Source of the DNA: Mycolicibacillus parakoreensis
Lineage (GTDB): Bacteria; Actinomycetota; Actinomycetes; Mycobacteriales; Mycobacteriaceae
Length of the DNA: 64,000 nucleotides
Assembly: GCF_022370835.2 (NCBI RefSeq)
Contig: NZ_CP092365.1
Coordinates: 1,054,001-1,118,000, forward strand
Reading direction: 5' to 3'
In this document: piece after piece, positions 264 to 28,912 of the stretch
Layout of the letters: every line of letters begins with the position of its first letter
How positions within the stretch are numbered: position 1 is the stretch's first letter
The notes under the pieces: model-generated
What the model saw: only the letters and a program-made list of their open reading frames with translations
The model's database searches: none
What the model was told of the DNA's origin: nothing
Position numbers and translations under genes: made by a program

Positions 264-629
264 ATGGGCGAGTTGAATGTCGACATCGTGGCCGCCGATC
301 GCAGCGTGTGGTCGGGCGAGGCCAGTTTCATCTTCACCCGCACCACGGTCGGGGAGATCGGCATCCTGCCGCAGCACATTCCGCTGGTCGCCGAACTCGT
401 CGAGGACGCGATGGTGCGTGTCGAACGCACTGACGCGGAAGACCTGCGGATCGCGGTGCACGGTGGGTTCCTGTCGGTGACCGAGGAAGGCGTCATCGTC
501 TTGGCCGAGTCCGCCGATTTCGCCGAGGAGATCGACGAGACCACGGCCCGTCACGACTCGCAGTCCAGTGACCCGCGGATCGCCGCCCAGGGGCGCGCCA
601 GGCTGCGCGCACTGGGCGTCCTTGATTAG
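264..629 (+). CDS. atpC: ATP synthase F1 subunit epsilon
   Basis: A 121-residue protein, the usual length for the short mycobacterial epsilon subunit. It carries the N-terminal beta-sandwich of the family ([18 protein letters not shown], then [16 protein letters not shown]). The C-terminal helical part is short, as is typical in mycobacteria. Epsilon belongs to the central stalk of ATP synthase, couples rotation to catalysis and restrains ATP hydrolysis. It is the last gene of the atp operon, directly after atpD. The ATG at 264 follows a purine-rich GGCGG stretch. Confidence 0.95.
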
Positions 630-1752: not shown

Positions 1753-3009
1753 GTGGCGGAGCGATTCCTGGTGACCGGCGGCGGACGTCTGGTCGGTGAA
1801 GTGGCCGTTGGTGGCGCCAAAAATAGCGTGCTGAAATTGATGGCGGCCGCATTGCTCGCGGAGGGCACCAGCACCATCACCAACTGCCCCGAGATCCTCG
1901 ACGTGCCGTTGATGGCCGAAGTGTTGCGCGGGTTGGGCGCGACCGTCGAATTGGACGGTGAGACCGTGCGGATCACCTCCCCGGATGAGTTGAAATACGA
2001 TGCCGATTTCGCCGCGGTGCGCCAATTCCGGGCGTCGGTGTGTGTGTTGGGGCCGCTGGTGGGCCGGTGCAAGCGGGCCAAGGTGGCGTTGCCCGGCGGC
2101 GACGCGATCGGGTCGCGGCCGTTGGACATGCACCAGGCCGGTCTGCGCCAGCTCGGCGCGCGGTGCAACATCGAGCACGGCTGTGTGGTCGCCGAAGCCG
2201 ACTCCTTGCACGGCGCGGAGATTCAACTGGAGTTCCCCTCGGTCGGGGCGACCGAGAACATCCTGATGGCTGCGGTGCTGGCCACCGGGGTGACGGTGAT
2301 CCACAACGCCGCCCGCGAACCCGACGTGGTGGACCTGTGCACGATGCTCGCCCAGATGGGGGCCCAGATCACCGGGGCCGGGTCGCCGACGTTGACCATC
2401 ACCGGAGTGCCGCGGCTACACCCCACCGAGCACCGGGTGATCGGGGATCGCATCGTGGCCGCCACCTGGGGCATCGGTGCGGCGATGACCCGCGGGGACG
2501 TCACCGTCGCCGGGGTCGACCCGGCGCACCTACAGCTGGTGCTGCACAAGCTCAGCGACGCCGGGGCCACGGTGACCCAGACCGAGAACAGTTTCCGGGT
2601 GGCCCAGTACGAGCGGCCCAAGGCCGTCAATGTGGCGACGCTGCCGTTCCCCGGTTTCCCGACCGACCTGCAGCCGATGGCGATCGCGTTGGCGGCGATC
2701 GCCGACGGCACGTCGATGATCACCGAGAACGTCTTCGAGGCGCGGTTCCGGTTCGTCGAGGAGATGATCCGGTTGGGCGCCGACGCCCGCACCGACGGCC
2801 ACCACGCGGTGGTGCGGGGTTTGGCCCAGCTCTCCAGCGCCCCGGTGTGGTGCTCGGACATCCGGGCCGGCGCCGGGCTGGTGCTGGCCGGGCTGGTCGC
2901 CGACGGCGAGACCGAGGTGCACGACGTCTTCCACATCGATCGCGGTTATCCGAAGTTCGTCGAGAACCTGGTCGGCCTCGGTGTGGAGGTCGAACGCGTC
3001 GTTGGGTAG
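1753..3009 (+). CDS. murA: UDP-N-acetylglucosamine 1-carboxyvinyltransferase
   Basis: A 418-residue EPSP-synthase-fold enzyme that catalyses the first committed step of peptidoglycan synthesis, transfer of enolpyruvate from PEP to UDP-GlcNAc in the cytoplasm. The N-terminal substrate loop ([16 protein letters not shown], residues 20-35) is present. In the active-site loop [13 protein letters not shown] the residue aligned with the catalytic Cys of E. coli MurA is Asp117. This Cys-to-Asp change is the known mycobacterial trait that makes the enzyme insensitive to fosfomycin. The GTG start at 1753 gives the correct N-terminus ([10 protein letters not shown]). The rrn operon follows, the arrangement known for mycobacterial rrnA. 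Confidence 0.97.
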
Positions 3010-3078
3010 GATGGTCGCCAGATCACACCGGCCCCGGTCGGTGCGATATGGCCCGGCCCGCCAACCCGACGACCGCAG

Positions 3079-3107
3079 TTGACGGTTTGTCATTAACGGT
3101 GTACGCT
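3079..3107 (+). promoter_or_regulatory. rrn operon promoter (PCL1-like)
   Basis: A -35 TTGACG (3079-3084) and a -10 TACGCT (3102-3107) are separated by 17 bases. The following GGCCGGGTTGCCC matches the conserved leader motif seen just after the PCL1 promoter of mycobacterial rrnA operons. The predicted start is near 3114, about 170 bases before mature 16S. Further promoters in the 3010-3078 stretch cannot be excluded but none is clear. Confidence 0.75.
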
Positions 3108-3132
3108 GGCCGGGTTGCCCAAAACAGGGTGT

Positions 3133-3160
3133 GTTGTTTGAGAACTCAATAGTGTGTTTG
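3133..3160 (+). promoter_or_regulatory. rrn leader antitermination (nut-like) region
   Basis: The segment around GTTGTTTGAGAACTCAATAG is the conserved actinobacterial rrn leader element associated with Nus-factor antitermination. It lies between the promoter and 16S. The rest of the leader to 3283 is T- and G-rich and holds no open gene that I would support; it should contain the RNase III processing stalk. Confidence 0.6.
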
Positions 3161-3283
3161 GTGGTTTTTGTTTGTTGTTGTTTTTTGCCATGCCTTTGGC
3201 CGCCCCGTGGTTGGGGGTGTGGTGTTTTTTTGCCAGAGTTTTCTGGTTTGTTGTCAGGTATTTCTGAATGGCCTTTTGAGAGG

Positions 3284-8330
<5,047 letters not shown>

Positions 8331-8423
8331 CCAAAACCGCAACCACACCACACAACCCACACCACACCCCCAAAGCCCCACACAAAACAAAACAAGGGGC
8401 CCCACCACAAAAAGAAAATAAAG

Positions 8424-8539
8424 TTACGGCGGACACAGCGACAGGGAAACGCCCGGCCCCATCCCGAACCCGGAAGCTAAGCCTGCCAGCGCCGATGATA
8501 CTACCCAACCCGGGTGGAAAAGTAGGACACCGCCGAACA
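8424..8539 (+). rRNA. rrf: 5S ribosomal RNA
   Basis: The sequence runs from TTACGGCGGACACAGCGAC to GGACACCGCCGAACA, about 116 nucleotides, with the conserved CCCGAACCCGGAAGCTAAG core. The ends GGCGG and CCGCC pair to form helix I. It lies about 93 bases after 23S; the A- and C-rich spacer between them holds no tRNA. Confidence 0.95.
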
Positions 8540-8547
8540 CACATTAA

Positions 8548-8581
8548 CCTGTGCCCCCCGAATTCGTTCGGGGGGCACAGG
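8548..8581 (+). terminator. Intrinsic-type terminator of the rrn operon
   Basis: A perfect 15-bp inverted repeat, arms at 8548-8562 and 8567-8581, encloses a four-base TTCG loop, so the RNA folds into a very stable UUCG-capped hairpin 9 bases after 5S. No U-tract follows, which is common for mycobacterial terminators. The hairpin is seen directly; its terminator role is inferred from position. Confidence 0.8.
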
Positions 8582-8769
8582 CATATTCGCAGCCCGGTCA
8601 TAGAGTCGAAACTCTGAAAACACGTATCCGATACGCATCCCGGAATTGTCGATCACTTCCGGCCGGGCTGGCCGCCGTCGGAATTCGTTTCGGGTGGGCA
8701 CCCCGAAGCCGGTGTGCGAGAAAGCCGTATCCTTGATTGACCGGGCAACGAAAACGGAAGGCGGTACAG

Positions 8770-9582
8770 GTGAGCCAAGGCAGCGGTGGGGAACGGCGGC
8801 CGCGCTCGGGCGGCCCTCAACGCGGCCCGCGCCCGCGACCGCAGCCGCCGCGCAGCTCCGGTCCCGGCCGGGCCGGCCGCGCACAGCCGCACCCCGCCGC
8901 GCGTGCCCAGAGCGCGCCGCACGAAGGCCCGGCGATCCCGCCCGAGGTGCAAGCCAAGCAACTGGCGCCCGAGGTACGCCGCGAGCTGTCCACGCTGGAC
9001 CGCTCGACCGCCGACACCGTGGCGCGACACCTGGTGGCCGCCGGGACGCTGCTCGACGAGGACCCCGAGGCGGCGTTGCAGCACGCCCGCGCCGCCCGGG
9101 CACGCGCGGCCCGGATCGCCGCGGTGCGCGAAGCGGTGGGGATCGCCGCCTACCACTGCGGCGACTGGGCGCAGGCGCTGGCCGAACTGCGGGCCGCACG
9201 GCGGATGGGCAGCACATCCCCGCTGCTGCCGCTGGTCGCCGACTGTGAACGCGGTCTCGGGCGGCCGCAGCGGGCCATCGAGGTGGCCCGCGGTCCGGAA
9301 GCGGCCGAACTCACCGGCGACGAGGCCGACGAACTGCGGATCGTCGCGGCGGGCGCGCGCGCCGACCTCGGCCAGCTCGACGCCGCACTGGCGGTGCTGA
9401 CCACCCCGCAGATCGATCCCGACCGCACCGGGGCGATCGCGGCCCGGCTCTACTACGCCCACGCCGAGATCCTGCTGGCCCTGCAGCGCACCGAGGAGGC
9501 GCTGCAGTGGTTTCTGCGCTGCGCGGCCGCCGACATCGACGGGGTGACCGACGCCGAAGAGCGCATCGGCGAGCTGAGCTGA
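8770..9582 (+). CDS. Tetratricopeptide-repeat protein (Rv1691-like)
   Basis: A 270-residue protein. The first 60 residues are an Arg/Pro/Gly-rich low-complexity tail (RPRSGGPQRGPRPRPQPP). The rest is a helical array of TPR-like repeats (LLDEDPEAALQHARAARARA, AYHCGDWAQALAELRAA, ALQRTEEALQWFLRCAA). Helical repeats of this type usually bind partner proteins. The GTG at 8770 is preferred because GGAAGG lies about eight bases upstream; a TTG at 8737 is in frame but lacks such a site. The gene matches the position of Rv1691 and begins the Rv1691-Rv1700 block. Its partner is unknown. Confidence 0.8.
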   Translation: MSQGSGGERRPRSGGPQRGPRPRPQPPRSSGPGRAGRAQPHPAARAQSAPHEGPAIPPEVQAKQLAPEVRRELSTLDRSTADTVARHLVAAGTLLDEDPEAALQHARAARARAARIAAVREAVGIAAYHCGDWAQALAELRAARRMGSTSPLLPLVADCERGLGRPQRAIEVARGPEAAELTGDEADELRIVAAGARADLGQLDAALAVLTTPQIDPDRTGAIAARLYYAHAEILLALQRTEEALQWFLRCAAADIDGVTDAEERIGELS

Positions 9583-9583
9583 C

Positions 9584-10609
9584 ATGGCCACTCTCCTCGA
9601 CGCCCATGACTGTCTGCTGCTCGACCTCGACGGCACGGTGTTTCGCGGCCACCGCCCCACCGAGGGGGCGGTGGAGGCGCTGCGGACCGCGCCGGCCCGC
9701 GCCCTGTTCGTCACCAACAACGCCTCCCGCAGCGCCGCGCAGGTCGCCGACCATCTGCGTGAGCTGGGGTTCGAGGCCGCCGCCGAGGACGTCGTCACCA
9801 GCGCGCAGAGCGCGGCACACCTGTTGGCGCGCCGGCTCGATCCCGGGGCACCGGTCCTGGTCGTCGGCACCGATTCGCTGGCGGCCGAGATCCGCGCCGT
9901 CGGGCTGACACCGGTACGCCGGTTCGCCGAGGACCCGGTGGCCGTGGTGCAGGGGCACTCGCCGGACACCGGCTGGGCGCAGCTGGCCGAGGCCGCGCTG
10001 GCGGTGCGGTCCGGGGCGCTGTGGGTGGCGTCCAACGTCGACCGCACCCTGCCCTCGGAGCGGGGCCTGCTGCCCGGCAACGGTGCGATGGTCGCCGCGC
10101 TGCGGGCCGCCACCGACACCGACCCCCAGGTGGCCGGCAAACCGGCACCGACGCTGTTGACCGACGCGTTGGCGCGCGGACGGTTCGCCAGCCCGTTGGT
10201 CGTCGGTGACCGGCTCGACACCGACATCGCCGGGGCGAACGCGAGCGGCTTGCCCAGCCTGATGGTGCTCACGGGGGTCAATTCCGCGCGTGACGCGGTG
10301 TTCGCCGACCCCGATCAGCGCCCCACCTACCTGGGTGCCGATCTGCGCGCGTTGCATCGGGGCGCCGAGACGGTGGCCGTCGCGGCGCAGCCGGGGTGGC
10401 GGGTCACCGTCGAGGAGACGACGGTGACCGTGACGCGGGCTGCCGATCACCGTGCCGAGGACCCGCTGTCGGTGGTGCGGGCGGTGGCCCGCGCGATCTG
10501 GGACGCCGAGTCGCGGGGGCGCCCCCACACGGTCCTGGCCGGCGACGACGCCGCGCGCGCGGCGCTGCAGCGCTGGTCGCTGCTCGCCGACCCCGATCGA
10601 CTAGCGTGA
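9584..10609 (+). CDS. HAD-IIA family phosphatase (Rv1692-like)
   Basis: A 341-residue hydrolase of the haloacid dehalogenase superfamily. Motif I is LLDLDGTVFRG with nucleophile Asp14 and Asp16, motif II is FVTNNAS, and the C-terminal metal motif is VVGDRLDTDIAGA. The large cap between motifs II and III places it in the NagD-like class IIA. In M. tuberculosis the Rv1692 orthologue is reported as a glycerol-phosphate phosphatase, so a role in recycling polar lipid headgroups is plausible. The ATG at 9584 follows the TPR gene stop directly, suggesting coupled translation. Confidence 0.88.
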   Translation: MATLLDAHDCLLLDLDGTVFRGHRPTEGAVEALRTAPARALFVTNNASRSAAQVADHLRELGFEAAAEDVVTSAQSAAHLLARRLDPGAPVLVVGTDSLAAEIRAVGLTPVRRFAEDPVAVVQGHSPDTGWAQLAEAALAVRSGALWVASNVDRTLPSERGLLPGNGAMVAALRAATDTDPQVAGKPAPTLLTDALARGRFASPLVVGDRLDTDIAGANASGLPSLMVLTGVNSARDAVFADPDQRPTYLGADLRALHRGAETVAVAAQPGWRVTVEETTVTVTRAADHRAEDPLSVVRAVARAIWDAESRGRPHTVLAGDDAARAALQRWSLLADPDRLA

Positions 10610-10617
10610 GACCCGTC

Positions 10618-10788
10618 ATGAGTACCGACCCCGACCAGATTCGCGCCCAGATCGATGCACTCCTTGCCCCGCTGCCCGACGGTGACGATCCCGCCCTGGC
10701 CGACTCCGACCTGGCCGGCATCGCGCGCCGGCTCTCCGAGGCGCACGATGTGCTGGTCCAGGCCCTGGAATCGGTGGAGAAAGGCTGA
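10618..10788 (+). CDS. Small conserved protein (Rv1693-like)
   Basis: A 56-residue acidic protein, MSTDPDQIRAQIDALLAP to QALESVEKG. It looks mainly helical with heptad-like hydrophobic spacing (IARRLSEAHDVLVQALESV), so it may form a short coiled coil. It sits between the HAD phosphatase and tlyA exactly as Rv1693 does in M. tuberculosis. That conservation supports a real gene despite its size. Its function is unknown. Confidence 0.75.
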   Translation: MSTDPDQIRAQIDALLAPLPDGDDPALADSDLAGIARRLSEAHDVLVQALESVEKG

Positions 10789-10795
10789 GTGTGTT

Positions 10796-11605
10796 GTGGC
10801 GCGGCGCGTCCGTGTTGACGCCGAACTGGTCCGACGGGGACTGGCCCGGTCCCGCCAGCAGGCCGCGGAATTGATCGGCGCCGGCAAGGTCAGCATCGAC
10901 GGCATGCCGGCGGTCAAACCGGCCACCGCGGTGGCGCCCACCGCGAACCTCACGGTCGACGCCGCGAACGATCGCCCGTGGGTGTCGCGCGGTGCCCACA
11001 AGCTGATCGGCGCGCTGGAGACCTTCGGTCTCGGCGTCGCGCGGCGACGCTGCCTCGACGCCGGTGCGTCCACCGGCGGGTTCACCGAGGTGCTGCTCGA
11101 CCGCGGTGTCCGCGAAGTGGTGGCCGTCGACGTCGGCTACGGGCAGCTGGCCTGGCCGCTGCGCTCCGATCCGCGGGTGACGGTGCTGGAGCGCACCAAC
11201 GTGCGCAACCTGACCGCCGAGCAAACCGGCGGCGCCGTCGACCTGGTCGTCGCCGACCTGTCGTTCATCTCGCTGGCGACCGTGTTGCCCGCACTGGTCG
11301 GCTGCGCGGCACCCGACGCCGATATCGTGCCCATGGTGAAACCACAATTCGAGGTCGGCAAGGGCCAGGTGGGCCCGGGAGGAGTCGTCCAGGACCCGGC
11401 CCTGCGCCACGCGGCGGTGCTGTCGGTGGCCGACCGTGCCGCCGTGCTGGGCTGGCCGCCCGTCGGGGTGACCGCCAGCCCGCTTCCGGGCCCGTCGGGC
11501 AATGTCGAATATTTTCTGTGGCTGCGCGCGCGCACCGACCACCCGTTGACCGGGGCGGCGCTCGATGACGCCGTGCAGTCCGCCGTCGCGGAAGGACCGC
11601 AATGA
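10796..11605 (+). CDS. tlyA: 16S/23S rRNA (cytidine-2'-O)-methyltransferase TlyA
   Basis: A 269-residue protein with an N-terminal S4 RNA-binding domain (residues 1-60) and a FtsJ-type SAM methyltransferase domain carrying the SAM motif DAGASTGG (residues 88-95). With the GTG start at 10796, the catalytic tetrad falls at K69, D154, K182 and E238, exactly the numbering of M. tuberculosis TlyA, which confirms the start. The enzyme 2'-O-methylates C1409 of 16S and C1920 of 23S rRNA, and loss of these marks gives capreomycin resistance. Its stop overlaps the nadK start by four bases (ATGA). Confidence 0.95.
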
Positions 11606-12525
11606 CCCCAGAGCGCACCATTTTGTTGGTGGTACACACCGGCCGTGAGGATGCGACCGACACCGCGCGCCGAGTGGAGAAGGTCCTCGGTGAGCACGGC
11701 ATCGCGCTGCGGGTGCTCTCCGCGGAGGCCGTCGACCGGGGTGGGCTGCAACTGGCACCCGAGCACACCCGCTCGATGGGCTTCGACATCGAGGTGGTCG
11801 ACGCCGATGATCACGCCGCCCGCGGCTGCGAGCTGGTGTTGGTGCTCGGCGGGGACGGCAGTTTCCTGCGGGCCGCCGAGTTGGCCCACAACGCCGGCAT
11901 CCCGGTGCTCGGCGTCAACCTGGGCCGGATCGGGTTCCTCGCCGAGGCCGAGGCCGAGGCCATCGACGCCGTGCTCGACCATGTCATCGCCCGCGACTAC
12001 CGGGTCGAAGACCGGATGACCCTCGACGTCGCGGTCCGCGCCGGTGGGCAGGTCGTCGACCGCGGGTGGGCGCTGAACGAGGCCAGCCTGGAGAAGGGCC
12101 AGCGCCTCGGGGTGCTCGGCGTGATCGTCGAGGTCGATGCGCGGCCGGTGTCGACGTTCGGCTGCGACGGCGTGCTGGTGTCCACCCCGACCGGGTCGAC
12201 CGCCTACGCGTTCTCCGCGGGTGGTCCGCTTCTGTGGCCCGACCTCGACGCGATCCTGGTCGTGCCCAACAACGCCCACGCCCTGTTCGCCCGCCCGATG
12301 GTGACCAGCCCGCACGCCACGATCGCGATCGAACTGGAGGCCAGCGGCCACGACGCGTTGGTGTTCTGCGACGGGCGCCGCGAGATGCGGGTGCCCGCCG
12401 GCAGCCGCCTGGAGGTCACCTGCGGACGCACCCCGGTCAAATGGGCCCGGTTGGACAGTGCCCCGTTCACCGACCGGTTGGTCCGCAAGTTCCGGCTGCC
12501 GGTCACCGGGTGGCGCGGGCAGTGA
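11602..12525 (+). CDS. nadK: NAD kinase
   Basis: A 307-residue enzyme that phosphorylates NAD+ to NADP+ in the cytoplasm. Family signatures are the [12 protein letters not shown] loop (GGDG at 83-86), [10 protein letters not shown], the NE motif in [10 protein letters not shown], and the Gly-rich [16 protein letters not shown] segment. Its ATG overlaps the tlyA stop, so translation of the two is probably coupled. Order tlyA-nadK-recN is conserved with Rv1694-Rv1696. Confidence 0.95.
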
Positions 12526-12535
12526 GGGCACGCCG

Positions 12536-14332
12536 GTGCTGACCGAGATCACGATCGCCTCGCTGGGGGCGATCAGCGCCGCGACCGCGGAGTTCGGTCG
12601 CGGGCTGACCGTGCTGACCGGGGAGACCGGCACCGGCAAGACCATGGTGGTGACCGGCCTGCACCTGCTCGGCGGGGCGCGCGCCGACGCCAACCGGGTC
12701 CGTTCCGGTGCCGACCGTGCCGTGGTCGAGGGCCGCTTCGCCACCGCCGACCTCGATGAGCGGACCGCCCGGCGGGTCGCGGAGATCCTCGACGCCTGCG
12801 GCGGGGACCGCGACGAGGACGGCAGCGTGATCACCTCCCGGTCGGTCAGCCGCGACGGCCGGTCCCGGGCCTACCTGGGCGGGCGCAGCGTGCCGGCCAA
12901 GTCGTTGAGCGGGTTCACCGCAGGCCTGCTCACCCTGCACGGCCAGAACGATCAGCTGCGGCTGATGCGCCCGGAGGAGCAGCGCGGCGCCCTGGACCGC
13001 TACGCCGGGGTCGGCGATGAACTGGAGACCTACCGCAAACTGCGCGACCGCTGGCTGACGGCCCGACGTGACCTCACCGAACGCCGCCTGCGGGCCCGTG
13101 AGCTGGCCCAGGAGGCGGACCGGCTGCAGTTCGCCCTCGAGGAGATCGCCGCGGTCGACCCGCAGCCCGGCGAAGACGACGCCCTCACCACCGACATCCG
13201 CCGCCTCTCCGAACTCGACACCCTGCGCGAGGCGGTCGCCGGGGCGCGCGCGGCACTGGCCGGCACCGATGAGGCCGACGATCCCGCGGCGGTGACACCG
13301 TCGGTGTCGAGCCTGCTGGGGCGGGCGCGCGCGGCGCTGGACGGCGCCGACGACCGGACGCTGCGCGACCTCGCCGACCAGCTCGGGGGAGCGCTGACCG
13401 TCATCGCCGACGTCAGCACCGAACTCGGTGACTACCTGGGTGCGTTGCCCGACGACGCCAGCGCGCTGGACACCAAGTTGGCCCGCCAGGCGGAGCTGCG
13501 CACCCTGACCCGCAAATACGCCGCCAACACCGACGGGGTGCTGGACTGGGCGCGGGAGGCCGGTGACCGGCTGGCCACCCTCGACGTCTCCGAGGAGACC
13601 CTCGCCGAGCTGCAGCGGCGCACCGACGATCTGGCCGCCCAGGTCGGGCAGGCGGCGCTGGCGCTCAGTGCGCTGCGGCACCGCCACGCCGCCGGGCTGG
13701 CCGAGGCGGTCACCGCCGAGCTGGCCGGGCTGGCCATGGCCGACGCCGAGTTCACCGTCGCGGTCACCGCGGTCGCCGCCGCCGACGATGATCCGGCCGC
13801 GCTCACCCTGGACTCCGCAGAACCGGTGCGCGCCGGAGCCGACGGCATCGACCAGGTCGAGTTCGGGTTCACCGCCCACCGGGGGACCACCGTGCTGCCG
13901 TTGGCCAAAAGCGCCTCCGGCGGGGAGCTGTCCCGGGTGATGTTGGCCATCGAGGTGGTGCTGGCCACCGCGATGCACCGCTCGCACGGCACCACGATGG
14001 TCTTCGACGAGATCGACGCCGGGGTGGGCGGGCGCGCCGCCGTGCAGATCGGCCGGCGACTGGCCCGGCTGGCCCGCACCCACCAGGTCATCGTCGTCAC
14101 CCACCTGCCGCAGGTGGCCGCCTACGCCGACGTGCACCTGACGGTGACCGCCGCCGGTGACGACGGGGCCAGCGAGGTGTGCTGCCTCGACACCGACCAA
14201 CGTGTCGCCGAGCTGGCCCGCATGCTCGCCGGCCTCGGCGAATCCGACAGCGGGCGCGCCCACGCACGCGAACTGCTCAGCACCGCCCAGACCGAGATCG
14301 CCGCCCCCGATGCGGCCTCGACCGGCCCCTGA
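12536..14332 (+). CDS. recN: DNA repair protein RecN
   Basis: A 598-residue SMC-like ATPase for double-strand-break repair. The Walker A motif GETGTGKTM lies about 34 residues from the start, an Ala- and Arg-rich coiled-coil region fills the centre, and the ABC signature SASGGELSRVML and Walker B TMVFDEIDAGVGG are in the C-terminal third, as expected for a split-head SMC protein. I chose the GTG at 12536 (VLTEITIASLGAI) because family members start here; an in-frame upstream start would overlap nadK. Confidence 0.93.
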   Translation: MLTEITIASLGAISAATAEFGRGLTVLTGETGTGKTMVVTGLHLLGGARADANRVRSGADRAVVEGRFATADLDERTARRVAEILDACGGDRDEDGSVITSRSVSRDGRSRAYLGGRSVPAKSLSGFTAGLLTLHGQNDQLRLMRPEEQRGALDRYAGVGDELETYRKLRDRWLTARRDLTERRLRARELAQEADRLQFALEEIAAVDPQPGEDDALTTDIRRLSELDTLREAVAGARAALAGTDEADDPAAVTPSVSSLLGRARAALDGADDRTLRDLADQLGGALTVIADVSTELGDYLGALPDDASALDTKLARQAELRTLTRKYAANTDGVLDWAREAGDRLATLDVSEETLAELQRRTDDLAAQVGQAALALSALRHRHAAGLAEAVTAELAGLAMADAEFTVAVTAVAAADDDPAALTLDSAEPVRAGADGIDQVEFGFTAHRGTTVLPLAKSASGGELSRVMLAIEVVLATAMHRSHGTTMVFDEIDAGVGGRAAVQIGRRLARLARTHQVIVVTHLPQVAAYADVHLTVTAAGDDGASEVCCLDTDQRVAELARMLAGLGESDSGRAHARELLSTAQTEIAAPDAASTGP

Positions 14333-14435
14333 CCGCCGTCGCCACCTGTGGCAAATGTGACGCGATATAACTATTGAGGCTGGTGTTACGGCGCGCCTCC
14401 ATGACGGGAGCGGCTTTGGCCGACAGAATCGCCGC

Positions 14436-15617
14436 ATGAGGATGTCAGCGCTGCTTTCCCGAAACAGCTCGCGACCCGGCATTGTCGGTACGGCCCGGGT
14501 CGACCGCGATATGGATCGGCTGCTCCGCCGGCTCTGCCCGGGCGACATCGCCATCGTCGAGGCGCAGGATCTGGACCGCATCACCGCCGACGCGCTGGTG
14601 GACGCCCAGGTCGCCGGTGTCGTCAACGCCGCGCCGTCGATCTCGGGGCGCTACCCCAACCAGGGCCCGGAGGTGCTGGTCGCCAACGGTGTCGCGCTGT
14701 TCGACGAGGCGGGCCCGGAGGTCTTCAAGAAGATCAAGGACGGCGCCAAGATCCGGCTCTACGAGGGCGGGATCTACACCGGGGACCGTCGGTTGATCCA
14801 GGGCACCGAGCGCGCCGACCACGACATCGCCGAGTTGATGCACGAGGCGAAAAGCGGGTTGGTCGCCCACCTCGAGGCCTTCGCCGGCAACACCATCGAG
14901 TTCATCCGCAGTGAAAGTCCGCTGCTCATCGACGGCATCGGCATCCCCGACGTCGACATCAACCTGCGCCGCCGTCACGTCGTGCTCGTCGGTGACGAGC
15001 CGACGGCGATCGACGACCTCAAGGTGCTCAAACCGTTCATCAAGGAGTACCAGCCGGTGCTGCTGGGGGTGGGCGCCGGCGCCGACGTGCTCCGCAAGGC
15101 CGGCTACCGGCCGCAGTTGATCGTCGGCGACCCCGAACACATCAGCACCGAAGTCCTCAAGTGCGGCGCCGAGGTGGTGCTGCCGGCCGACGCCGACGGC
15201 CACGCCCCCGGGCTGGAACGCATCCAGGACCTCGGGGTGGGCGCGATGACCTTCCCGGCGGCCGGTTCGGCCATGGACCTGGCGCTGCTGCTCGCCGACC
15301 ACCACGGCGCCTCGCTGCTGGTGACCGCCGGGCACAACGCCAGCATCGAGGAGTTCTTCGACCGCACCCGCCAGCAGAGCAACCCGTCGATGTTTTTGAC
15401 CCGCCTGAAGGTCGAGGACAAACTCGTCGACGCCAAGGCCGTGGCCACCCTCTACCGCAACCGGGTCTCCGCGGGAGCCATCGCGTTGCTGGTGTTCACC
15501 ATGCTGATCGCGGTCATCGTGGCCCTGTGGGTGTCGCGTACCGATGTCTCGGTGCTGCACTGGATCACCGAATACTGGAACCGCTTCTCGGTGTGGGTAC
15601 AGGGCTGGATCACCTAG
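14436..15617 (+). CDS. steA: Cell-envelope/cytokinetic protein SteA (Rv1697-like)
   Basis: A 393-residue protein with a cytoplasmic domain related to thiamine pyrophosphokinases and one C-terminal membrane segment (about residues 345-367, AGAIALLVFTMLIAVIVALWV). It is closely similar along its length to Rv1697, the homologue of corynebacterial SteA, which works with SteB in cell separation and envelope integrity. The stop TAG overlaps the AGGAGG ribosome-binding site of the next gene, so SteA and the SteB/MctB protein are translationally linked. The 103-base gap before it contains an AT-rich TATAAC stretch (14363-14372 region) that could be a promoter. Confidence 0.88.
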   Translation: MRMSALLSRNSSRPGIVGTARVDRDMDRLLRRLCPGDIAIVEAQDLDRITADALVDAQVAGVVNAAPSISGRYPNQGPEVLVANGVALFDEAGPEVFKKIKDGAKIRLYEGGIYTGDRRLIQGTERADHDIAELMHEAKSGLVAHLEAFAGNTIEFIRSESPLLIDGIGIPDVDINLRRRHVVLVGDEPTAIDDLKVLKPFIKEYQPVLLGVGAGADVLRKAGYRPQLIVGDPEHISTEVLKCGAEVVLPADADGHAPGLERIQDLGVGAMTFPAAGSAMDLALLLADHHGASLLVTAGHNASIEEFFDRTRQQSNPSMFLTRLKVEDKLVDAKAVATLYRNRVSAGAIALLVFTMLIAVIVALWVSRTDVSVLHWITEYWNRFSVWVQGWIT

Positions 15618-15626
15618 GAGGCCTCG

Positions 15627-16568
15627 GTGGTTTCACTACGGCACCATGTGATCTCGTTGGCCGCGGTCTTCCTGGCGCTGGCAGTCGGGGTGGTGTTGGG
15701 CTCGGGGTTGCTCTCCGACTCGCTGCTGTCGGGCGTGCGTGCGGAGAAAAAGGATCTGCGCAGCCAGATCAGTGAGCTCAACGACGAGAAGAACGCGCTC
15801 AACGAGAAGCTCGACGCCGTCAACCATTTCGACTCCCTGGTGGCCGGGCGCATCGTGCGCGACGCGCTGGCGGGGAAGTCGGTGGTGATCTTTCAGGCGC
15901 CGGATGCCGACGGCGACGACGTCGAATCGCTCACCCGTACCGTGGGGCAGGCCGGGGCGACGGTCACCGGGACGGTGTCGCTGACCCAGCAATTCGTCGA
16001 GGCCAACTCCGCGGAGAAGCTGCGCTCGGTGGTGACCTCATCGGTGCTGCCCGCCGGTGCGCAGTTGAATCCCGCCCTGATCGATCAGGGGGCGCAGGCC
16101 GGCGACCTGCTCGGCATCGCCGTGCTGATCAACCGCGATACGGCGATCAAACCGGCCGACGACGCCCAGCGCGAGACCGTGCTGGCCGCGCTGCGCGACA
16201 CCGGGTTCATCTCCTACGGCGATCAGCAGATCGGTGCGGCGGACACCGCGCTGGTGATCACCGGCGGCGCCGTCGCCGACGATGCCGGCAACCAGGGCAC
16301 CAGCGTGGCCCGGTTCGCCGCGGCGCTCGCCCCGCGCGGCTCCGGGACGCTGCTGGCCGGTCGTGACGGCTCGGCGTCGGGTTCGGCCGCGGTCGCGGTG
16401 ACCCGCGCGGACGCCGGGATGGCGGCCGCGGTGAGCACCGTCGACGACATCGACACCGAGGCCGGACGCATCACCGCGGTGCTCGGGCTGGCCGAGCTGA
16501 TCGGTGGTGGTGACCCCGGTCAGTACGGCATCGGCCCCGGTGCGACGGCGATCACCGTCGCACAGTGA
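15627..16568 (+). CDS. mctB: SteB/MctB family outer-envelope protein (Rv1698-like)
   Basis: A 313-residue protein with an N-terminal membrane anchor or signal segment (residues 8-30, VISLAAVFLALAVGVVLGSGL), then a coiled coil (about residues 36-65, LRSQISELNDEKNALNEK) and a soluble domain. The Rv1698 orthologue was described as MctB, needed for copper resistance, and the corynebacterial orthologue is SteB, partner of SteA. A strong AGGAGG (15616-15621) is five bases before the GTG start. It likely acts in the periplasm or outer envelope; whether it forms a channel is debated. Confidence 0.88.
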   Translation: MVSLRHHVISLAAVFLALAVGVVLGSGLLSDSLLSGVRAEKKDLRSQISELNDEKNALNEKLDAVNHFDSLVAGRIVRDALAGKSVVIFQAPDADGDDVESLTRTVGQAGATVTGTVSLTQQFVEANSAEKLRSVVTSSVLPAGAQLNPALIDQGAQAGDLLGIAVLINRDTAIKPADDAQRETVLAALRDTGFISYGDQQIGAADTALVITGGAVADDAGNQGTSVARFAAALAPRGSGTLLAGRDGSASGSAAVAVTRADAGMAAAVSTVDDIDTEAGRITAVLGLAELIGGGDPGQYGIGPGATAITVAQ

Positions 16569-16656
16569 GGCCCGGCGGGCGTGTCAACGCCGGCTGGTTC
16601 GGTCGGGTGTTAAGGTGAGATTCCGTGGGTCGGCAGGCCCCACTAGCACAAGCTAG

Positions 16657-19047
<2,391 letters not shown>

Positions 19048-19051
<4 letters not shown>

Positions 19052-20004
19052 CCGCCGCCCAGGCCGCGCCGGTGGCCCTCGACGGCCAGGTCGGCGGCTA
19101 CCTGGACCATCTGACGATCGAGCGCGGGGTGGCCGCCAACACGTTGAGCTCCTACCGTCGGGATCTTCGCCGCTACAACGACTATCTGCGCCGGCGGGGG
19201 ATCGAGGACCTCGGCGAGGTCAGCGAGGCCGATGTCAGCGAGTTCGTGGTGGCGCTGCAGCGCGGCGACGTCGAGGCGGGGCTGAGCCCGCTGTCGGCGG
19301 TGTCGGCCGGGCGGGCGCTGGTCGCGGTGCGCGGTCTGCACCGTTTCGCCGCCGCCGAAGGGGTGGCGCCGGCGGACGTGGCCCGCGAGGTGCGCCCACC
19401 GAGTGCGGGTCGCCGGCTGCCCAAGAGCCTCACCGTCGAGGAGGTGCTGGCGCTGTTGGAGGCCGCCGGAGGCGACCGGCCCTCCGACAGTCCGTTGACG
19501 TTGCGCAATCGCGCGCTGCTGGAGTTGCTGTACTCCACCGGGGCGCGGATCTCCGAGGCGGTCGGCTTGGACCTCGACGACATCGACACCCACGACCGCT
19601 CGGTGTTGCTGCACGGCAAGGGCGACAAGCAGCGGCTGGTGCCGATCGGGCGGCCCGCCGTGGCCGCTCTGGAGGCGTATCTGGTGCGCGGGCGCCCCGA
19701 TCTGGCCCGGCGTGGCCGCGGCACACCGGCGTTGTTCCTCAACGCCCGCGGGGGCCGGCTCTCCCGGCAGAGCGCCTGGCAAGTGCTCCACGACGCCGCC
19801 GAGCACGCCGGGATCACCGCCGCGGTCTCCCCGCACACCCTGCGCCACTCGTTCGCTACCCACCTGCTCGACGGCGGCGCCGACGTCCGCGTCGTGCAGG
19901 AACTGCTCGGCCACGCGTCGGTGACCACCACCCAGATCTACACGCTGGTCACCGTGCACGCACTGCGTGAGGTGTGGGCCGGCGCCCACCCGCGGGCCCG
20001 CTAA
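19048..20004 (+). CDS. xerD: Site-specific tyrosine recombinase XerD
   Basis: A 318-residue recombinase. It has the N-terminal SAM-like core-binding domain (residues 12-105) and a catalytic domain with the full active site: R167, K191, H263, R266, H289 and nucleophile Y298. With XerC it resolves chromosome dimers at dif before cell division. The GTG at 19048 overlaps the NUDIX stop and gives the standard family length. The gene ends tail-to-tail with the methyltransferase, overlapping by four bases. Its location in the Rv1700-Rv1703 order supports XerD rather than a phage integrase. Confidence 0.93.
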
Positions 20005-20759
20005 CCCGAGCCCAGATAGCGCGACTCGAGCACCAGGTCGGGGATCAGGCTCTGATACTCCGCGTGGGTCTTGTGCTCGACGGTGTCGAACAGCGTGCCC
20101 TGCTGTTCGCGCATGTAGGCCCGGTATTTCGGGGCGCCCGGCACCAGGACGTTGTCGGCGACCACGATCGCCTCCCGACGCAGCCAACCGCGGTCGAGGA
20201 TGCTCTGCAGATCGGGCAGGTAGGCCACCTTGTCGTGATCGAGGAACAGAAAATCCAGCGCTCCCGGGGTGAGTCCGTGGTCGCGGGCCAGCGCGTCGAG
20301 GGTGCCGCCGCCGTCGCCGAGGGTGCCGACCACGCAGCCGATCCGATCCGAGACCCCCGCATGCGCCCAGATGGCGCGGGCGTTGGCGGCGTTGGCCTCG
20401 GCCAGCTCCACCGAGAGCACCCGCGCCTGCGGGGCGGCGCGGGCGATGCGCAGCGCGCTGTACCCGGCGTAGGTGCCCAACTCCAGTGCGAGCGTCGGCT
20501 CGGCACGGCGCACCGCGGCGTCGAGGAGCGCGCCCTTCTCGTCGCCGACGTTCATCAACATCGACTTGTCGTAGGCGAAGCGGTCGATGGTGGCGAGCAC
20601 GTCGTCGACGTCGCCGGCGCGGGCGTTGGCCAGCACGTAGCGCACCACCGCGTCCTCCCGGCCGTCACCGACCTGCCCGGTCCTGGACACATTGCGGGGC
20701 AGCGTGATCATCCGCAGCACCGACCAGCGCAGGAACGGGAAGCGCTGTTTGAGACTCAT
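20001..20759 (-). CDS. SAM-dependent O-methyltransferase (catechol-type, Rv1703c-like)
   Basis: A 252-residue class I methyltransferase of the COMT-like O-methyltransferase_3 group. The SAM-binding motif [16 protein letters not shown] (about residues 90-105), the acidic [14 protein letters not shown] segment and the metal-binding-type FLFLDHDK and ADNVL motifs are all present. The substrate is unknown; the fold suggests catechols or related phenolics. On the minus strand its ATG is preceded by TAGGCT (complement of 20767-20772), seven bases upstream, so it may be transcribed without a leader. In M. tuberculosis, PPE and permease genes separate this gene from parA; here they are absent. Confidence 0.88.
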
Positions 20760-20823
20760 AGCGCCCAGCCTATGCGGTCGGGCCGGTGATCTTGCCTGTG
20801 CACGGCGGTTGACCCGTTAGACT

Positions 20824-21744
20824 TTGGCCGATGTTCGCCACCACCGCAGCACCGAGTCGTTCGACGGGCCCCGGGCGCCGATGAACAGCAACGCTGACGG
20901 CACCGTCGAGCTGGGCCTGACCGGCCGGCCCCCGCGTGACATCCCCGAACCGCAACCCCGGGTCTCGCACGGTCCCGCGCAGGTCATCGCGATGTGTAAC
21001 CAGAAGGGCGGCGTCGGCAAGACGACCTCGACGATCAACCTCGGCGCCGCGCTCGCCGAGTACGGGCGCCGGGTGCTGCTGGTGGACCTCGACCCGCAGG
21101 GTGCGCTCTCGGCGGGGCTGGGGGTGCCGCACTACGAGCTGGAACGCACCGTGCACAACCTGCTGGTGGAACCGCGGGTCTCGACCGACGAGGTGCTCAT
21201 CGGCACCCGGATCAAAAACGTCGATCTGATCCCGTCCAACATCGACCTGTCGGCCGCCGAGATCCAGTTGGTCAACGAGGTGGGGCGCGAGCAGTCGCTG
21301 GCGCGTGCGCTGCACCCGGTCATCGACCGCTACGACTACGTCCTGGTCGACTGTCAGCCGTCGCTGGGGTTGCTCACCGTCAACGGTCTGGCCTGCGCGG
21401 ACGGGGTGATCATCCCGACCGAGTGCGAGTATTTCTCGCTGCGGGGCCTGGCGTTGCTCACCGACACGGTCGAGAAGGTGCGCGACCGGCTCAACCCGAA
21501 GCTGGAGATCAGCGGCATCCTGGTCACCCGCTTCGACCCGCGCACCATCAACTCCCGGGAGGTGATGGCCCGGGTGGTGGAACGCTTCGGTGATCTGGTG
21601 TTCGACACGGTCATCACCCGCACCGTCCGGTTCCCGGAAACCACCGTGGCCGGGGAGCCGATCACCACCTGGGCTCCGAAATCCGGCGGTGCCCAGTCCT
21701 ACCGTGCGCTGGCCCGCGAGGTCATCGACCGGTTCGGCGCCTGA
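20824..21744 (+). CDS. ParA-like chromosome-partitioning ATPase (Rv1708-like)
   Basis: A 306-residue ParA/Soj-family P-loop ATPase. The deviant Walker A CNQKGGVGKTT is about 58 residues from the start, followed by LLVDLDPQGALS and the Walker A' region VLVDCQPSLGLLT. No parB is next to it, so it is not the canonical parAB pair; it heads the scpA-scpB operon and probably assists nucleoid organisation. The start is uncertain: TTG 20824 gives an N-terminal extension like that of homologues, while ATG 20881 would shorten the protein by 19 residues. Confidence 0.9.
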   Translation: MADVRHHRSTESFDGPRAPMNSNADGTVELGLTGRPPRDIPEPQPRVSHGPAQVIAMCNQKGGVGKTTSTINLGAALAEYGRRVLLVDLDPQGALSAGLGVPHYELERTVHNLLVEPRVSTDEVLIGTRIKNVDLIPSNIDLSAAEIQLVNEVGREQSLARALHPVIDRYDYVLVDCQPSLGLLTVNGLACADGVIIPTECEYFSLRGLALLTDTVEKVRDRLNPKLEISGILVTRFDPRTINSREVMARVVERFGDLVFDTVITRTVRFPETTVAGEPITTWAPKSGGAQSYRALAREVIDRFGA

Positions 21745-21745
21745 G

Positions 21746-22564
21746 GTGACCGCGGAGGACACCGCCGAGCAGTCCGGGTTCCAGGTTCGGCTGACCAATT
21801 TCGAGGGGCCCTTCGACCTGCTGCTGCAGTTGATCTTCGCCCACCGGCTCGATGTCACCGAGGTCGCGCTGCACCAGGTCACCGACGACTTCATCGCCTA
21901 CACCCGCGAGATCGGGGCCCACCTGGGGTTGGAGGAGACCACCGCCTTCCTGGTGATCGCCGCGACCCTGCTCGATCTCAAGGCCGCCCGGCTGCTGCCG
22001 GCCGGGCAGGTCGACGACGAGGAAGACCTGGCGCTGCTGGAGGTCCGTGACCTGCTGTTCGCCCGATTGCTGCAGTATCGGGCTTACAAGCATGTCGCGC
22101 AGATGTTCGCCGAACTGGAGGCCGCCGCGCTGCGCAGCTATCCGCGGGCGGTGTCGCTGGAGGACCGCTTCGCCGATCTGTTGCCCGAGGTGATGCTCGG
22201 CGTCGACGCGCAGCGCTTCGCCGAGATCGCGGCGAGCGCCTTCACCCCGCGCCCGGTGCCCACGGTCGCCACCGCGCACCTGCACCAGGTCAGCGTCTCG
22301 GTGCCCGAGCAGGCTCAGCGACTGCTGGCGCTGCTGGAGGCCCGCGGCAGCGGCACCTGGGCGTCGTTTCGCGAGCTGGTCGCCGACTGCGAGGTGCCGA
22401 TCGAGATCGTCGGACGCTTCCTGGCGCTGCTCGAGCTGTACCGAGCGCGGGCGGTAGCATTCGAGCAGGCAGAGCCACTTGGTGTGCTCGAGGTTTCGTG
22501 GACCGGAGAACGTCCGGCCGCTGGAGACCTCGACGAACTGGTGAAAGCAGACAACCCCACATGA
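21746..22564 (+). CDS. scpA: Segregation and condensation protein A
   Basis: A 272-residue kleisin. The N-terminal helical domain that binds the SMC neck begins FQVRLTNFEGPFDLLLQLI, a strong ScpA signature, and the winged-helix C-terminus is at about residues 190-255. ScpA bridges SMC heads and recruits ScpB in the bacterial condensin. The GTG at 21746 is one base after the parA stop; the stop overlaps the scpB ATG, so translation is coupled. Confidence 0.94.
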   Translation: MTAEDTAEQSGFQVRLTNFEGPFDLLLQLIFAHRLDVTEVALHQVTDDFIAYTREIGAHLGLEETTAFLVIAATLLDLKAARLLPAGQVDDEEDLALLEVRDLLFARLLQYRAYKHVAQMFAELEAAALRSYPRAVSLEDRFADLLPEVMLGVDAQRFAEIAASAFTPRPVPTVATAHLHQVSVSVPEQAQRLLALLEARGSGTWASFRELVADCEVPIEIVGRFLALLELYRARAVAFEQAEPLGVLEVSWTGERPAAGDLDELVKADNPT

Positions 22565-23325
22565 CCCAGCCCGACGACGCGCGCCCCGAGGAGACGACCC
22601 CGGCGGCGCCCCCGCAGCCCGCGGAGCCGCTCGCCGTGGACGACAACGGCGACCCGGCGCACCGCAGCGACGCGCTCGGCATCGACGTCGCCACCGCCGA
22701 CCTCGACGACGAGGAGCTCGCCGCGGTGCTCGAGGCGCTGCTGCTGGTGGTCGACACCCCGGTGGCCACCGAGACGCTGGCCACGGCCACCGAGCAGCCG
22801 GTGGATCGGGTCGCCGCCCAGCTGCGTGCGATGGCCGAGGGCCTCGCCGCCCGCGACAGCGGCATCGAGTTGCGGGAGGCCGGCGGGGGATGGCGGCTCT
22901 ACACCCGGGCCGCCTACGCGCCGTATGTGGAACGGCTGCTGCTCGACGGGGCGCGCTCGAAGCTGACCCGCGCCGCCCTGGAGACCCTCGCGGTGGTGGC
23001 CTACCGCCAGCCGGTGACCCGGGCGCGGGTCTCGGCGGTGCGCGGGGTCAACTGCGATGCGGTGATGCGCACGCTGCTGGCGCGCGGGCTGATCACCGAG
23101 GCCGGACCCGACGCCGACACCGGCGCGGCGACGTTCACCACCACCGAGCTGTTTCTGGAGCGGCTCGGGTTGTCGTCGCTGGCCGATCTGCCCGATATCG
23201 CCCCGCTGCTGCCCGATGTCGACAGCATCGACGACCTGAGCGAATCGTTGGACAGCGAGCCACGTTTCATGAAACTCGGTGGCGCCTCGGCCGACGAGCC
23301 CCTGACCTTCGACGTGGACCGATGA
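22561..23325 (+). CDS. scpB: Segregation and condensation protein B
   Basis: A 254-residue protein. An acidic, Pro-rich leader of about 45 residues precedes the paired winged-helix domains: AVLEALLLVVDTPVATETLA at about residues 60-80 and ALETLAVVAYRQPVTRARVS at about 140-160, the latter an ScpB hallmark. ScpB dimers bind ScpA in the SMC condensin. The ATG at 22561 overlaps the scpA stop and the stop overlaps the next ATG at 23322. Confidence 0.94.
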   Translation: MTQPDDARPEETTPAAPPQPAEPLAVDDNGDPAHRSDALGIDVATADLDDEELAAVLEALLLVVDTPVATETLATATEQPVDRVAAQLRAMAEGLAARDSGIELREAGGGWRLYTRAAYAPYVERLLLDGARSKLTRAALETLAVVAYRQPVTRARVSAVRGVNCDAVMRTLLARGLITEAGPDADTGAATFTTTELFLERLGLSSLADLPDIAPLLPDVDSIDDLSESLDSEPRFMKLGGASADEPLTFDVDR

Positions 23326-24059
23326 CCGAGGGAATCCGCCTGCAGAAGGTGCTCTCCCGGGCCGGGGTGGCGTCGCGGCGGGTGGCCGAGAAGATGATCC
23401 GCGACGGGCGCGTCGAGATCGACGGCCGGGTGGTCAGCGAGTTGGGCACCCGGGTGGACCCGGAGTCCGCGGTGATCCGGGTCGACGGCGCGCGGGTGAG
23501 CGTCGATGAATCCCTGGTGTACCTGGCGTTGAACAAACCCCGCGGGATGCATTCGACGATGTCGGATGATCGCGGCCGGCCGTGCATCGGGGATCTGGTC
23601 GAGCACCGGGTGCGCGGCAACAAGAACCTCTTCCACGTCGGACGGTTGGACGCCGACACCGAGGGGCTGATCCTGCTGACCAACGACGGGGAACTGGCCC
23701 ACCGGTTGATGCACCCGTCCTACGAGGTGCCGAAAACCTATCTGGCGACCGTTGCGGGCACGGTGCCGCGCACCCTGGGCAAGAGACTGCGGGCCGGTGT
23801 GGACCTGGAGGACGGCCCCGCGCGGGTGGACGACTTCGCCGTGGTCGACGCGGTAGCGGGCCGCACCCTGGTGCGGGTGACCCTGCACGAGGGACGCAAC
23901 CGGATCGTGCGGCGGCTGCTGGGCGCCGCCGGGTTCCCGGTGCAGGAATTGGTGCGCACCGAGATCGGTGCGGTCACGCTGGGGGAGCAGCGACCGGGAA
24001 GCATTCGGCCGTTGCGGCGCAACGAAATCGGACAACTCTACAAGGCGGTCGGACTGTGA
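23322..24059 (+). CDS. 23S rRNA pseudouridine synthase, RluB/RsuA family
   Basis: A 245-residue protein with an N-terminal S4 RNA-binding domain ([19 protein letters not shown], residues 5-23) and the RsuA-type catalytic domain with active-site Asp110 in [16 protein letters not shown]. These enzymes isomerise a uridine in rRNA; by family the likely target is U2605 of 23S rRNA, but the site is not proven by sequence. Order scpB-this gene-cmk-der matches Rv1710-Rv1713 and many Gram-positive genomes. Confidence 0.9.
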
Positions 24060-24739
24060 GCGGGTTGAGGATCGCCGTGGACGGGCCGGCGGGCACCGGA
24101 AAATCCTCGGTGTCACGCGGACTGGCACGCGCGTTGAGATCGCGCTATCTCGACACCGGCGCGATGTACCGGATCGTGGCGTTGGCGGTGCTGCGGGCCG
24201 GGATCGACCCGACCGACGCGGCGCGGGTCGCCCGGCTGGTTCCCGACGTGCGCCTCGCGGTCGGTGCCGACCCCGACGGTGACCGTTTCTACCTTGCCGA
24301 CGACGACGTGTCAGCTCAGATCCGCGGTGCGGCGGTGACCGGCGCGGTCTCGGCGGTCTCGGCGGTGCCGGCGGTGCGGCAGCGACTCGTCGAACTGCAG
24401 CGACAGTTGGCCGCCGGCCCCGACGGCATCGTGGTGGAGGGTCGCGACATCGGCACCGTGGTGCTCCCGGACGCCGAGCTGAAGGTCTTCCTCACCGCCT
24501 CGCCGCAGACCCGGGCGCGGCGGCGCAACGAACAGAACGTCGCCGCCGGGCAACCCGACGACTACGCCGGGGTGCTCGCCGACGTGCAGCGCCGCGACCA
24601 CCTCGACTCCACCCGGGCGGCCTCACCGCTGCTGCCCGCCGACGACGCGGTCATCGTCGACACCAGCGCGATGACCGAAGCCGCGGTGGTCGAGTACCTG
24701 ATCGGACTGGTCGATGACCACAGTGGGGCGCGTCGATGA
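24056..24739 (+). CDS. cmk: Cytidylate kinase
   Basis: A 227-residue nucleoside monophosphate kinase that phosphorylates CMP and dCMP. The P-loop is [15 protein letters not shown] (residues 10-24), followed by YLDTGAMYR, the CMP-binding [15 protein letters not shown] and the LID-type ARRRNEQ segment. The GTG start overlaps the preceding stop (GTGA) and the stop overlaps the der ATG. With pyrG nearby it supplies cytidine nucleotides, though the two are in different transcription units. Confidence 0.94.
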
Positions 24740-26181: not shown

Positions 26182-26209
26182 CCGCGCGACACCGCGTAAG
26201 GTGCTGTCG

Positions 26210-26992
26210 ATGTCGTTGTTCGAGGTGGCGCTGATCACGCTGGCCGGACTCGGCGCCGGGGCGATCAACTCGCTGGTGGGAAGCGGCACCCTGATCACTT
26301 TCCCGACCCTGGTCACGCTGGGGTATGCGCCGCTGACCGCCACCATCTCCAATGCGGTCGGGCTGGTGGCCGGCGGCGTCTCGGGCACCTGGGCCTACCG
26401 GCGCGAGCTGCGCGGCCAGTGGGCCCGGCTGCGCTGGCAGCTGCCCGGCTCCCTACTGGGGGCGGTCTGCGGTGCGTGGCTGCTGCTGCACCTGCCCGAG
26501 CAGGTGTTCAACCGCGTGGTGCCCGCGCTGTTGGTGTTGGCGCTGGTCCTGGTGGTGGTCGGCCCGCGCATCCAGCGATTGGCCCAGCGCCGCGCGCTCG
26601 CCGCGGGCCGCTCCCTTGAGCAGCTCAGCCGGGGCCGGTTGGCGGCGTTAACGATCGGGACCTTCGCGGTCGGGGTCTACGGGGGGTATTTCTCCGCCGC
26701 CCAGGGGATTCTGCTCGTCGGGGTGATGGGGGTGCTGCTGCCCGAGTCGATGCAGCGGATGAACGCCGCGAAGAACCTGCTGGCGCTGGTGGTGAACATG
26801 GTGGCCGCCAGCGCCTACATCCTGGTGGCCGCCGACCGGATCAGTTGGGCCGCTGCCGGACTGATCGCGGCCGGGTCCCTGGTCGGCGGGCTGCTCGGCG
26901 GCCACTACGGCCGGCGGCTGTCCCCGACCGCGCTGCGGGCGGTGATCATCGTCGTCGGGCTGATCGGGCTGTGGCGGCTGCTCACCGTGTAG
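26210..26992 (+). CDS. TauE/SafE family sulfite exporter-like permease
   Basis: A 260-residue integral membrane protein with about eight hydrophobic helices and the duplicated family motif (LGAGAINSLVGSGTLITFP near residue 13 and VGVYGGYFSAAQGILLVGVMG near 157). TauE/SafE proteins export small anions such as sulfite, sulfoacetate or other organosulfur compounds; the substrate is not evident. The chosen ATG at 26210 has TAAGGT (26197-26202) seven bases upstream, so the mRNA may be leaderless; an in-frame GTG at 26201 is possible. Confidence 0.85.
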   Translation: MSLFEVALITLAGLGAGAINSLVGSGTLITFPTLVTLGYAPLTATISNAVGLVAGGVSGTWAYRRELRGQWARLRWQLPGSLLGAVCGAWLLLHLPEQVFNRVVPALLVLALVLVVVGPRIQRLAQRRALAAGRSLEQLSRGRLAALTIGTFAVGVYGGYFSAAQGILLVGVMGVLLPESMQRMNAAKNLLALVVNMVAASAYILVAADRISWAAAGLIAAGSLVGGLLGGHYGRRLSPTALRAVIIVVGLIGLWRLLTV

Positions 26993-27003
26993 CGGCCCGG
27001 CGC

Positions 27004-28704: not shown

Positions 28705-28912
28705 GGGGCCCGCTTCCTGGTAGTGACGCGTTGCGCAGCCGAAGCAATCTCGACAGGTGAGCCTACGTGGTGGGTCCCCGCCCGGGCGGCACCCACGGGC
28801 CGGGTGAGCGTGGGTGTCGGGTCGACGCCGGCCTGCGCGCAGAGTCAACGGACCGGTCGCCCCGGTTGCGGGCGCGACACCGGGTGATTCGGGCCGGCGG
28901 CGGGCGTGCGGT

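Follow-up and report, generated by a model that had tools for sequence, protein, structure and literature searches.

Reciprocally exchanged downstream flanks of the two rRNA operons of Mycolicibacillus parakoreensis, probably the product of two nested inversions

Two hybrid rRNA operon junctions

The window analysed here is a stretch of 64,000 nucleotides, C1:1054001-1118000, of the chromosome of Mycolicibacillus parakoreensis (labelled G000 in our comparisons with relatives G002-G141), and our subject is the ribosomal RNA (rRNA) operon, rrn, near its left end, together with the genes that flank it. The genome comprises 3,936,223 b in 2 contigs, the chromosome being a single 3.92-Mb contig that starts at dnaA and the second contig, of 14,660 b, perhaps a plasmid. 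At the junction, murA is followed by an operon whose 16S, 23S and 5S genes each match their Rfam model end to end, and then by a block of genes that begins with a TPR-like gene. The features are, in window positions:

264..629, plus strand: AtpC-like open reading frame (ORF), part of the conserved upstream flank of murA
1753..3009, plus strand: murA (Pfam EPSP_synthase), final gene of the ancestral flank upstream of rrnA
3125..8547, plus strand: tract homologous to the second rrn operon (98.5%, inverted, against C1:1848694-1854115)
3287..4809, plus strand: 16S rRNA gene
5199..8329, plus strand: 23S rRNA gene
8425..8538, plus strand: 5S rRNA gene
8737..9582, plus strand: TPR-like gene, an ORF of 281 amino acids, first gene of the block read here as relocated
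9584..10609, plus strand: HAD hydrolase (family match)
10691..11605, plus strand: TlyA-like methyltransferase (family match to S4/FtsJ)
11602..12525, plus strand: NAD kinase (family match)
12458..14332, plus strand: RecN-like ORF (named by eye)
8548..64000, no strand assigned: window portion of the block read here as relocated and inverted; the whole block, of 77-81 kb, ends beyond the window, at C1:1139.2-1143.4 kb

Neither ogt nor tyrS is present at this junction among the window ORFs, and the gene and rRNA calls confirm the junction described in an earlier, sequence-only reading of this DNA, namely murA, one intact rrn operon and Rv1691-Rv1692-like genes, without ogt or tyrS. The name of the TPR-like gene comes from that reading, and no Pfam match at E 1e-5 was found for its 281-residue ORF. 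The labels Rv1691-like (for the TPR-like gene) and Rv1692-like (for the HAD hydrolase) are likewise taken over from it or are our own presumed equivalents. The names AtpC, RecN and alkA were given by eye, without a family-library match behind them.

The second 16S gene of G000, which has two in all, lies at C1:1852432-1853954 on the minus strand, with tyrS immediately upstream of its operon (C1:1854354-1855601, minus strand; one further, weaker tyrS match, at 34.8 bits, fell under the cut-off). On the 3' side of this operon the order is GMC-oxidoreductase-like, dehydrogenase-like, TetR-like, hydrolase-like, ogt and alkA-like (the dehydrogenase-like, TetR-like and hydrolase-like genes named by eye), with ogt at C1:1840792, ~8 kb from the operon. 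Both hybrid junctions are thus seen directly in the assembly: the two operons lie in opposite orientation and their flanks are exchanged reciprocally, giving a murA-rrn-TPR block and a tyrS-rrn-ogt block. The sequence-only reading had pictured two same-direction operons whose recombination displaced the segment between them, and had left the whereabouts of tyrS and ogt to be checked. Both genes border the second, reciprocal hybrid operon of the same chromosome, so nothing has been displaced, and the opposite orientation of the two operons makes the exchange an inversion.

The oxidoreductase gene directly after the 5S gene of the second operon (FAD-binding-type N part, GMC C part; C1:1843.9-1848.6 kb) is interrupted by a Mutator-family transposase element present in two copies of 1,485 b, identical and inverted. 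Between their transposase ORFs there are two Rfam Ms_AS-8 matches.

Gene order in relatives

By the mycobacterial convention, as given in passages of PMC10218544 and PMC6089878, rrnA follows murA and rrnB follows tyrS; in the M-strain of the latter account, rrnA precedes an O6-alkylguanine alkyltransferase gene. Compared with the convention set out in these passages, both G000 operons keep their usual upstream genes and have their downstream genes exchanged. We compared this order with both operon flanks of 9 two-operon relatives and the murA side of 2 more, and extended the sample with the murA and TPR neighbourhoods of further genomes of 1-10 contigs, picked for few contigs. This yielded 43 murA-context and 43 TPR-context genomes, 42 of them in common (G099 is in the first set only and G139 in the second only).

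An rrn operon follows murA in 43/43 relatives, and the AtpC-like ORF lies upstream of murA in all 11 relatives for which the murA-side operon was retrieved. Past murA-rrn, ogt was detected in 38/43; it was not detected within the stretch retrieved in G002, G074, G107, G112 and G116. A TPR-like gene after murA-rrn was found in none of the 43, within the stretch read. On the other side, tyrS is upstream of the TPR-like gene in 43/43 relatives, with rrn between them in 29 and none between in 14, and every two-operon relative (29/29) has the usual order, in which murA-rrnA stands apart from the TPR block and the latter follows tyrS-rrn. The order in 43/43 relatives supports the view of the sequence-only reading that an rrnA-type upstream flank is joined here to an rrnB-type downstream flank through rrn. 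That the arrangement might be ancestral for the lineage or common in the genus is scarcely credible: we found nothing in support of it, and the order is shared by 0/43 relatives, among which are members of the two clades closest in the tree, Mycolicibacter and the slow growers. The neighbour swap in G000 is derived, not ancestral. The neighbours of rrnA and rrnB serve as landmarks of mycobacterial operons, and G000 shows that the downstream landmark can change.

In that tree (FastTree, 4 concatenated proteins, 120 rows), G000 pairs with the draft genome G096 (support 91), and the Mycolicibacter and slow-grower clades are their neighbours. The top identity to G000 among the 119 other rows is 76.8%, and MurA of G096 is 94% identical.

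The strands of murA and the TPR-like gene show which kind of exchange the usual layout permits. They are opposite in 17/40 relatives, and the substrate for an rrn-rrn inversion is common for that reason; they are the same in 23/40, a layout that would allow a same-direction exchange between rrnA and rrnB with excision of a circle and its re-insertion elsewhere. We rejected this second course as very improbable, because the G000 operons are in opposite orientation; moreover, an excised circle would carry the interior beside ogt or tyrS, where it does not lie, and more breaks are called for than with two inversions.

Block order, dif and the proposed inversions

The interval between the two operons was compared with that of G084, a two-operon relative with the usual contexts and the inverted layout, through best protein matches (at least 60% identity and at least 150 bits; 194 genes in the interval). 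G084 positions are counted with the TPR-like gene at 0, dif at 316 kb and murA at 1106 kb. G000 1062.7-1138 kb corresponds to G084 0-86 kb, G000 1143/1152-1800 kb to G084 1001/947 down to 118 kb, and G000 1806-1838 kb to G084 1040-1098 kb. The two outer blocks beside the operons, a TPR block of 76.7-80.9 kb and an ogt block of 42.5-47.6 kb, are therefore swapped and inverted relative to G084, and the interior of 658-667 kb between them, which carries dif, is in the old orientation.

The left inner breakpoint falls between an EccA-like AAA gene (end 1139.2 kb) and an AMP-ligase (FadD-like) gene (start 1143.4 kb), a stretch that contains two PPE-like genes (named by eye). A 625-b repeat also lies here (1141.3 kb); its other copies are at 1131.2 and 2108.5 kb and not near 1801-1806 kb in the sequence searched. 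The right inner breakpoint falls between an MgtC-family gene (end 1801.1 kb) and 1806.2 kb, the start of the G084 ogt-side match; it would narrow to 1801.1-1801.6 kb if an ABC transporter pair in between is part of the ogt block, as we presume from the M. tuberculosis gene order. The matching breaks in G084 fall in two unbroken stretches (~32 and ~39 kb) where the only matches to G000 are scattered, weaker (46-70%) and out of collinear order, which makes finer placement of the breaks in G084 impossible.

With a search pattern that we take to represent dif, we found one dif-like site in G000, at C1:1696169, with 2 mismatches and no control match. A looser pattern gave a single match in each of 40/41 genomes and none in G141, and in the 40 genomes with a site it lies at 41.9-57.1% of the chromosome. 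In 38/39 relatives the strand of the TPR-like gene is opposite to that of dif; in G000 the two share a strand. Both G000 operons are directed away from dnaA (position 115) and towards dif (1.696 Mb), and the shorter replichore of G000 as assembled, 43.2-43.3%, compares with 41.9-49.9% in 39 relatives. The block order and the position of the dif-like site, like the junctions, are read directly from the assembly.

Among the 39 relatives, G088 is the sole exception in strand: its dif (C1:3412002) and TPR-like gene share a strand at a distance of 641 kb, an arrangement that points to a further inversion around dif.

G000 has what an rrn-rrn inversion predicts, namely inverted operons with long homology and a reciprocal exchange of flanks. 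A single inversion of the whole interval is rejected, as it predicts the TPR-like gene and dif on opposite strands, but they are on the same strand here and the interior is collinear with G084; a whole-interval inversion between the operons accounts for G000 only when a second, inner one is added, needed because the interior with dif keeps its ancestral orientation. Recombination between the two operons, which the sequence-only reading had proposed, thus stands as the best source of the hybrid, and what falls is its sufficiency as a single exchange.

We consider it highly probable that the swap arose through two nested, terminus-spanning inversions, the outer one between the rrn operons. In the ancestor, one arm would have carried a murA-rrnA-ogt block and the opposite arm a tyrS-rrnB-TPR block, with the terminus between two operons that faced each other. 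The inverted 5.4-kb operons would then have undergone homologous recombination, with a crossover somewhere inside window 3125..8547, turning the 0.79 Mb between them and yielding the murA-rrn-TPR and tyrS-rrn-ogt blocks; the homology and the exchanged flanks point to such an exchange inside the rrn tract as the origin of the outer inversion. An inner inversion of ~660 kb (C1:1139.2-1143.4 to C1:1801.1-1806.2 kb) would have turned the dif-bearing interior back. The net effect would be that blocks of 77-81 kb and 43-48 kb change replichore, inverted, and that each operon retains its upstream gene and its origin distance and remains co-directional with replication. We reasoned, without running a program, that two inversions are the fewest that give the observed order, with either one first.

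Computed dif positions suggest why the two events may belong together. The ancestor would have had dif at 42.3-42.5% of the chromosome, and the intermediates at 31.7-32.0% after the outer inversion alone or 31.0% after the inner alone; the pair was probably tolerated or favoured because the two jointly keep the replichores balanced. More tentatively, the rrn-rrn inversion may have come first and unbalanced the replichores (~32:68), the inner inversion then being selected for restoring balance and so fixing a block swap that changes dosage. If so, the TPR block would now lie ~1 Mb closer to the origin and the ogt block ~1 Mb farther away. Measured from the origin, the TPR block goes from ~2.07-2.15 to 1.06-1.14 Mb and the ogt block from ~1.06-1.11 to 2.07-2.12 Mb, and the dosage of both in growing cells should have changed. 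G000 would offer a clean case of an asymmetric rrn inversion with a second, balance-keeping one, so that the idea of compensatory inversion becomes testable in sister strains.

The sequence-only reading had also raised the alternative of an assembler joining contigs through identical rRNA. On such a view, the true order would be murA-rrn-ogt and tyrS-rrn-TPR, with the interval flipped through the inverted rrn copies, and the inner inversion would still be real. The operons are indeed 98.5% identical over 5439 aligned positions (window 3125-8547), a length of 5.4 kb; a comparable error between two rRNA operons was found in Corynebacterium pseudotuberculosis 1002, according to part of PMC4851793, and 88 (6.76%) of 1295 ESKAPE genomes have invalid rrn orders, likely misassemblies, according to part of PMC7478630. 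The strongest argument on the other side is that a crossed-over assembly puts dif at 31.0%, outside the range of the 39 relatives. Neither sign of misassembly, operons head-on or dif far off balance, is seen in G000, whose chromosome is moreover one contig. The copies also carry distinguishing variants: 2 substitutions in 16S, 14 substitutions and 2 gaps in 23S, and no identical run longer than 1,091 b, so that accurate reads of modest length could tell the operons apart. A wider 23S alignment has 22 columns at which the two copies differ, most of them also variable among 40 relatives (murA-side copies); at the four where at least 38/40 relatives agree, the window copy is odd at three and the second copy at one. 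Replichore balance and copy-specific variants along the operons together make the assembly explanation unlikely, and in this genus assemblies that cross rrn can usefully be checked by where dif lies relative to dnaA.

Several observations weigh against the two-inversion history. The junctions are known here from assembled sequence. In the nearest genome, the draft G096, the murA contig and the TPR contig both end beside rrn, and it therefore neither confirms nor dates the swap. Both blocks shift ~1 Mb relative to the origin. The synteny was drawn against a single genome, G084, taken over about three quarters of the interval, and on the G000 side it leaves out 1580-1600, 1620-1660, 1680-1700 and 1760-1770 kb, save 3 kb around dif; 9/194 genes are off the pattern (G000 1102.8, 1109.0, 1171.1, 1295.3, 1375.1, 1441.1, 1556.3, 1600.2 and 1756.5 kb). 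The two inner breakpoints have no repeat in common within limits of at least 200 b and 85%, and a repeat-mediated inner inversion was rejected on this ground. A reversed control of the dif pattern also matched once, in G006. Lastly, the change of sign in sampled GC skew near 1.6-1.7 Mb is only rough (positive values at 1.77 Mb and 1.84 Mb, about zero at 1.2 Mb); by reasoning, skew cannot separate the assembled from the crossed order, because inverting a terminus-spanning interval keeps the sign pattern.

Other features of the interval were recorded alongside. Window ~24.7-59.5 kb has only two isolated, out-of-place matches to G084, the rest of the window block being collinear; a tRNA-Pro lies in this stretch at window 28950, and the genes of window 27-50 kb are patatin-like, AMP-ligase, MMPL, condensation-domain, polyketide synthase and MFS, the polyketide synthase ORF having 3,717 amino acids, the first 1,377 of which were scanned. 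A pair of 1.4-kb inverted repeats, 99.4% alike (C1:1356430-1357825 and C1:1469598-1470990), could support a further inversion of 113 kb. Among relatives, G002, G004 and G126 each have unusually different rrn copies, with 16 mismatches and 68 gaps in 16S in G002, 21 differences in 16S and 48 in 23S in G004, and 42 in 23S in G126; substitutions between 23S copies number 19 in G089, 15 in G109 and at most 7 in the other 24 relatives.

Comparison with known rearrangements

Recombination between rrn operons is documented in host-specific Salmonella, where, according to PMC2957434, the commonest rearrangements left replichore balance unchanged, and the socru survey, as excerpted from PMC7478630, types rrn orders and flags likely misassemblies. 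Set against these excerpts, G000 would likewise have had a large segment turned by operon recombination, and its operons still point from origin to terminus; it differs in that there are just two operons and that the proposed second inversion ends away from rrn on both sides. An earlier account of this swap was not found among the literature matches listed, going by their titles and abstract openings.

In C. pseudotuberculosis 1002, as described in a passage of PMC4851793, an inversion between two rRNA operons was exposed by optical mapping as a misassembly. Both cases concern an rRNA-operon inversion in a finished actinobacterial genome; there the optical map overturned the order, whereas in G000 the position of dif favours the order as assembled.

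According to an excerpt of PMC4889656, interreplichore translocations occur widely, and where they are symmetric the distance from oriC does not change. G000 gene blocks similarly lie on the opposite replichore from that of a relative, but unlike the symmetric translocations of that excerpt they swap origin distances, ~1.06-1.14 and 2.07-2.15 Mb. The proposed rrn inversion is of a kind already known; what is unusual in G000 is that an asymmetric outer step would be paired with an inner step that balances it.

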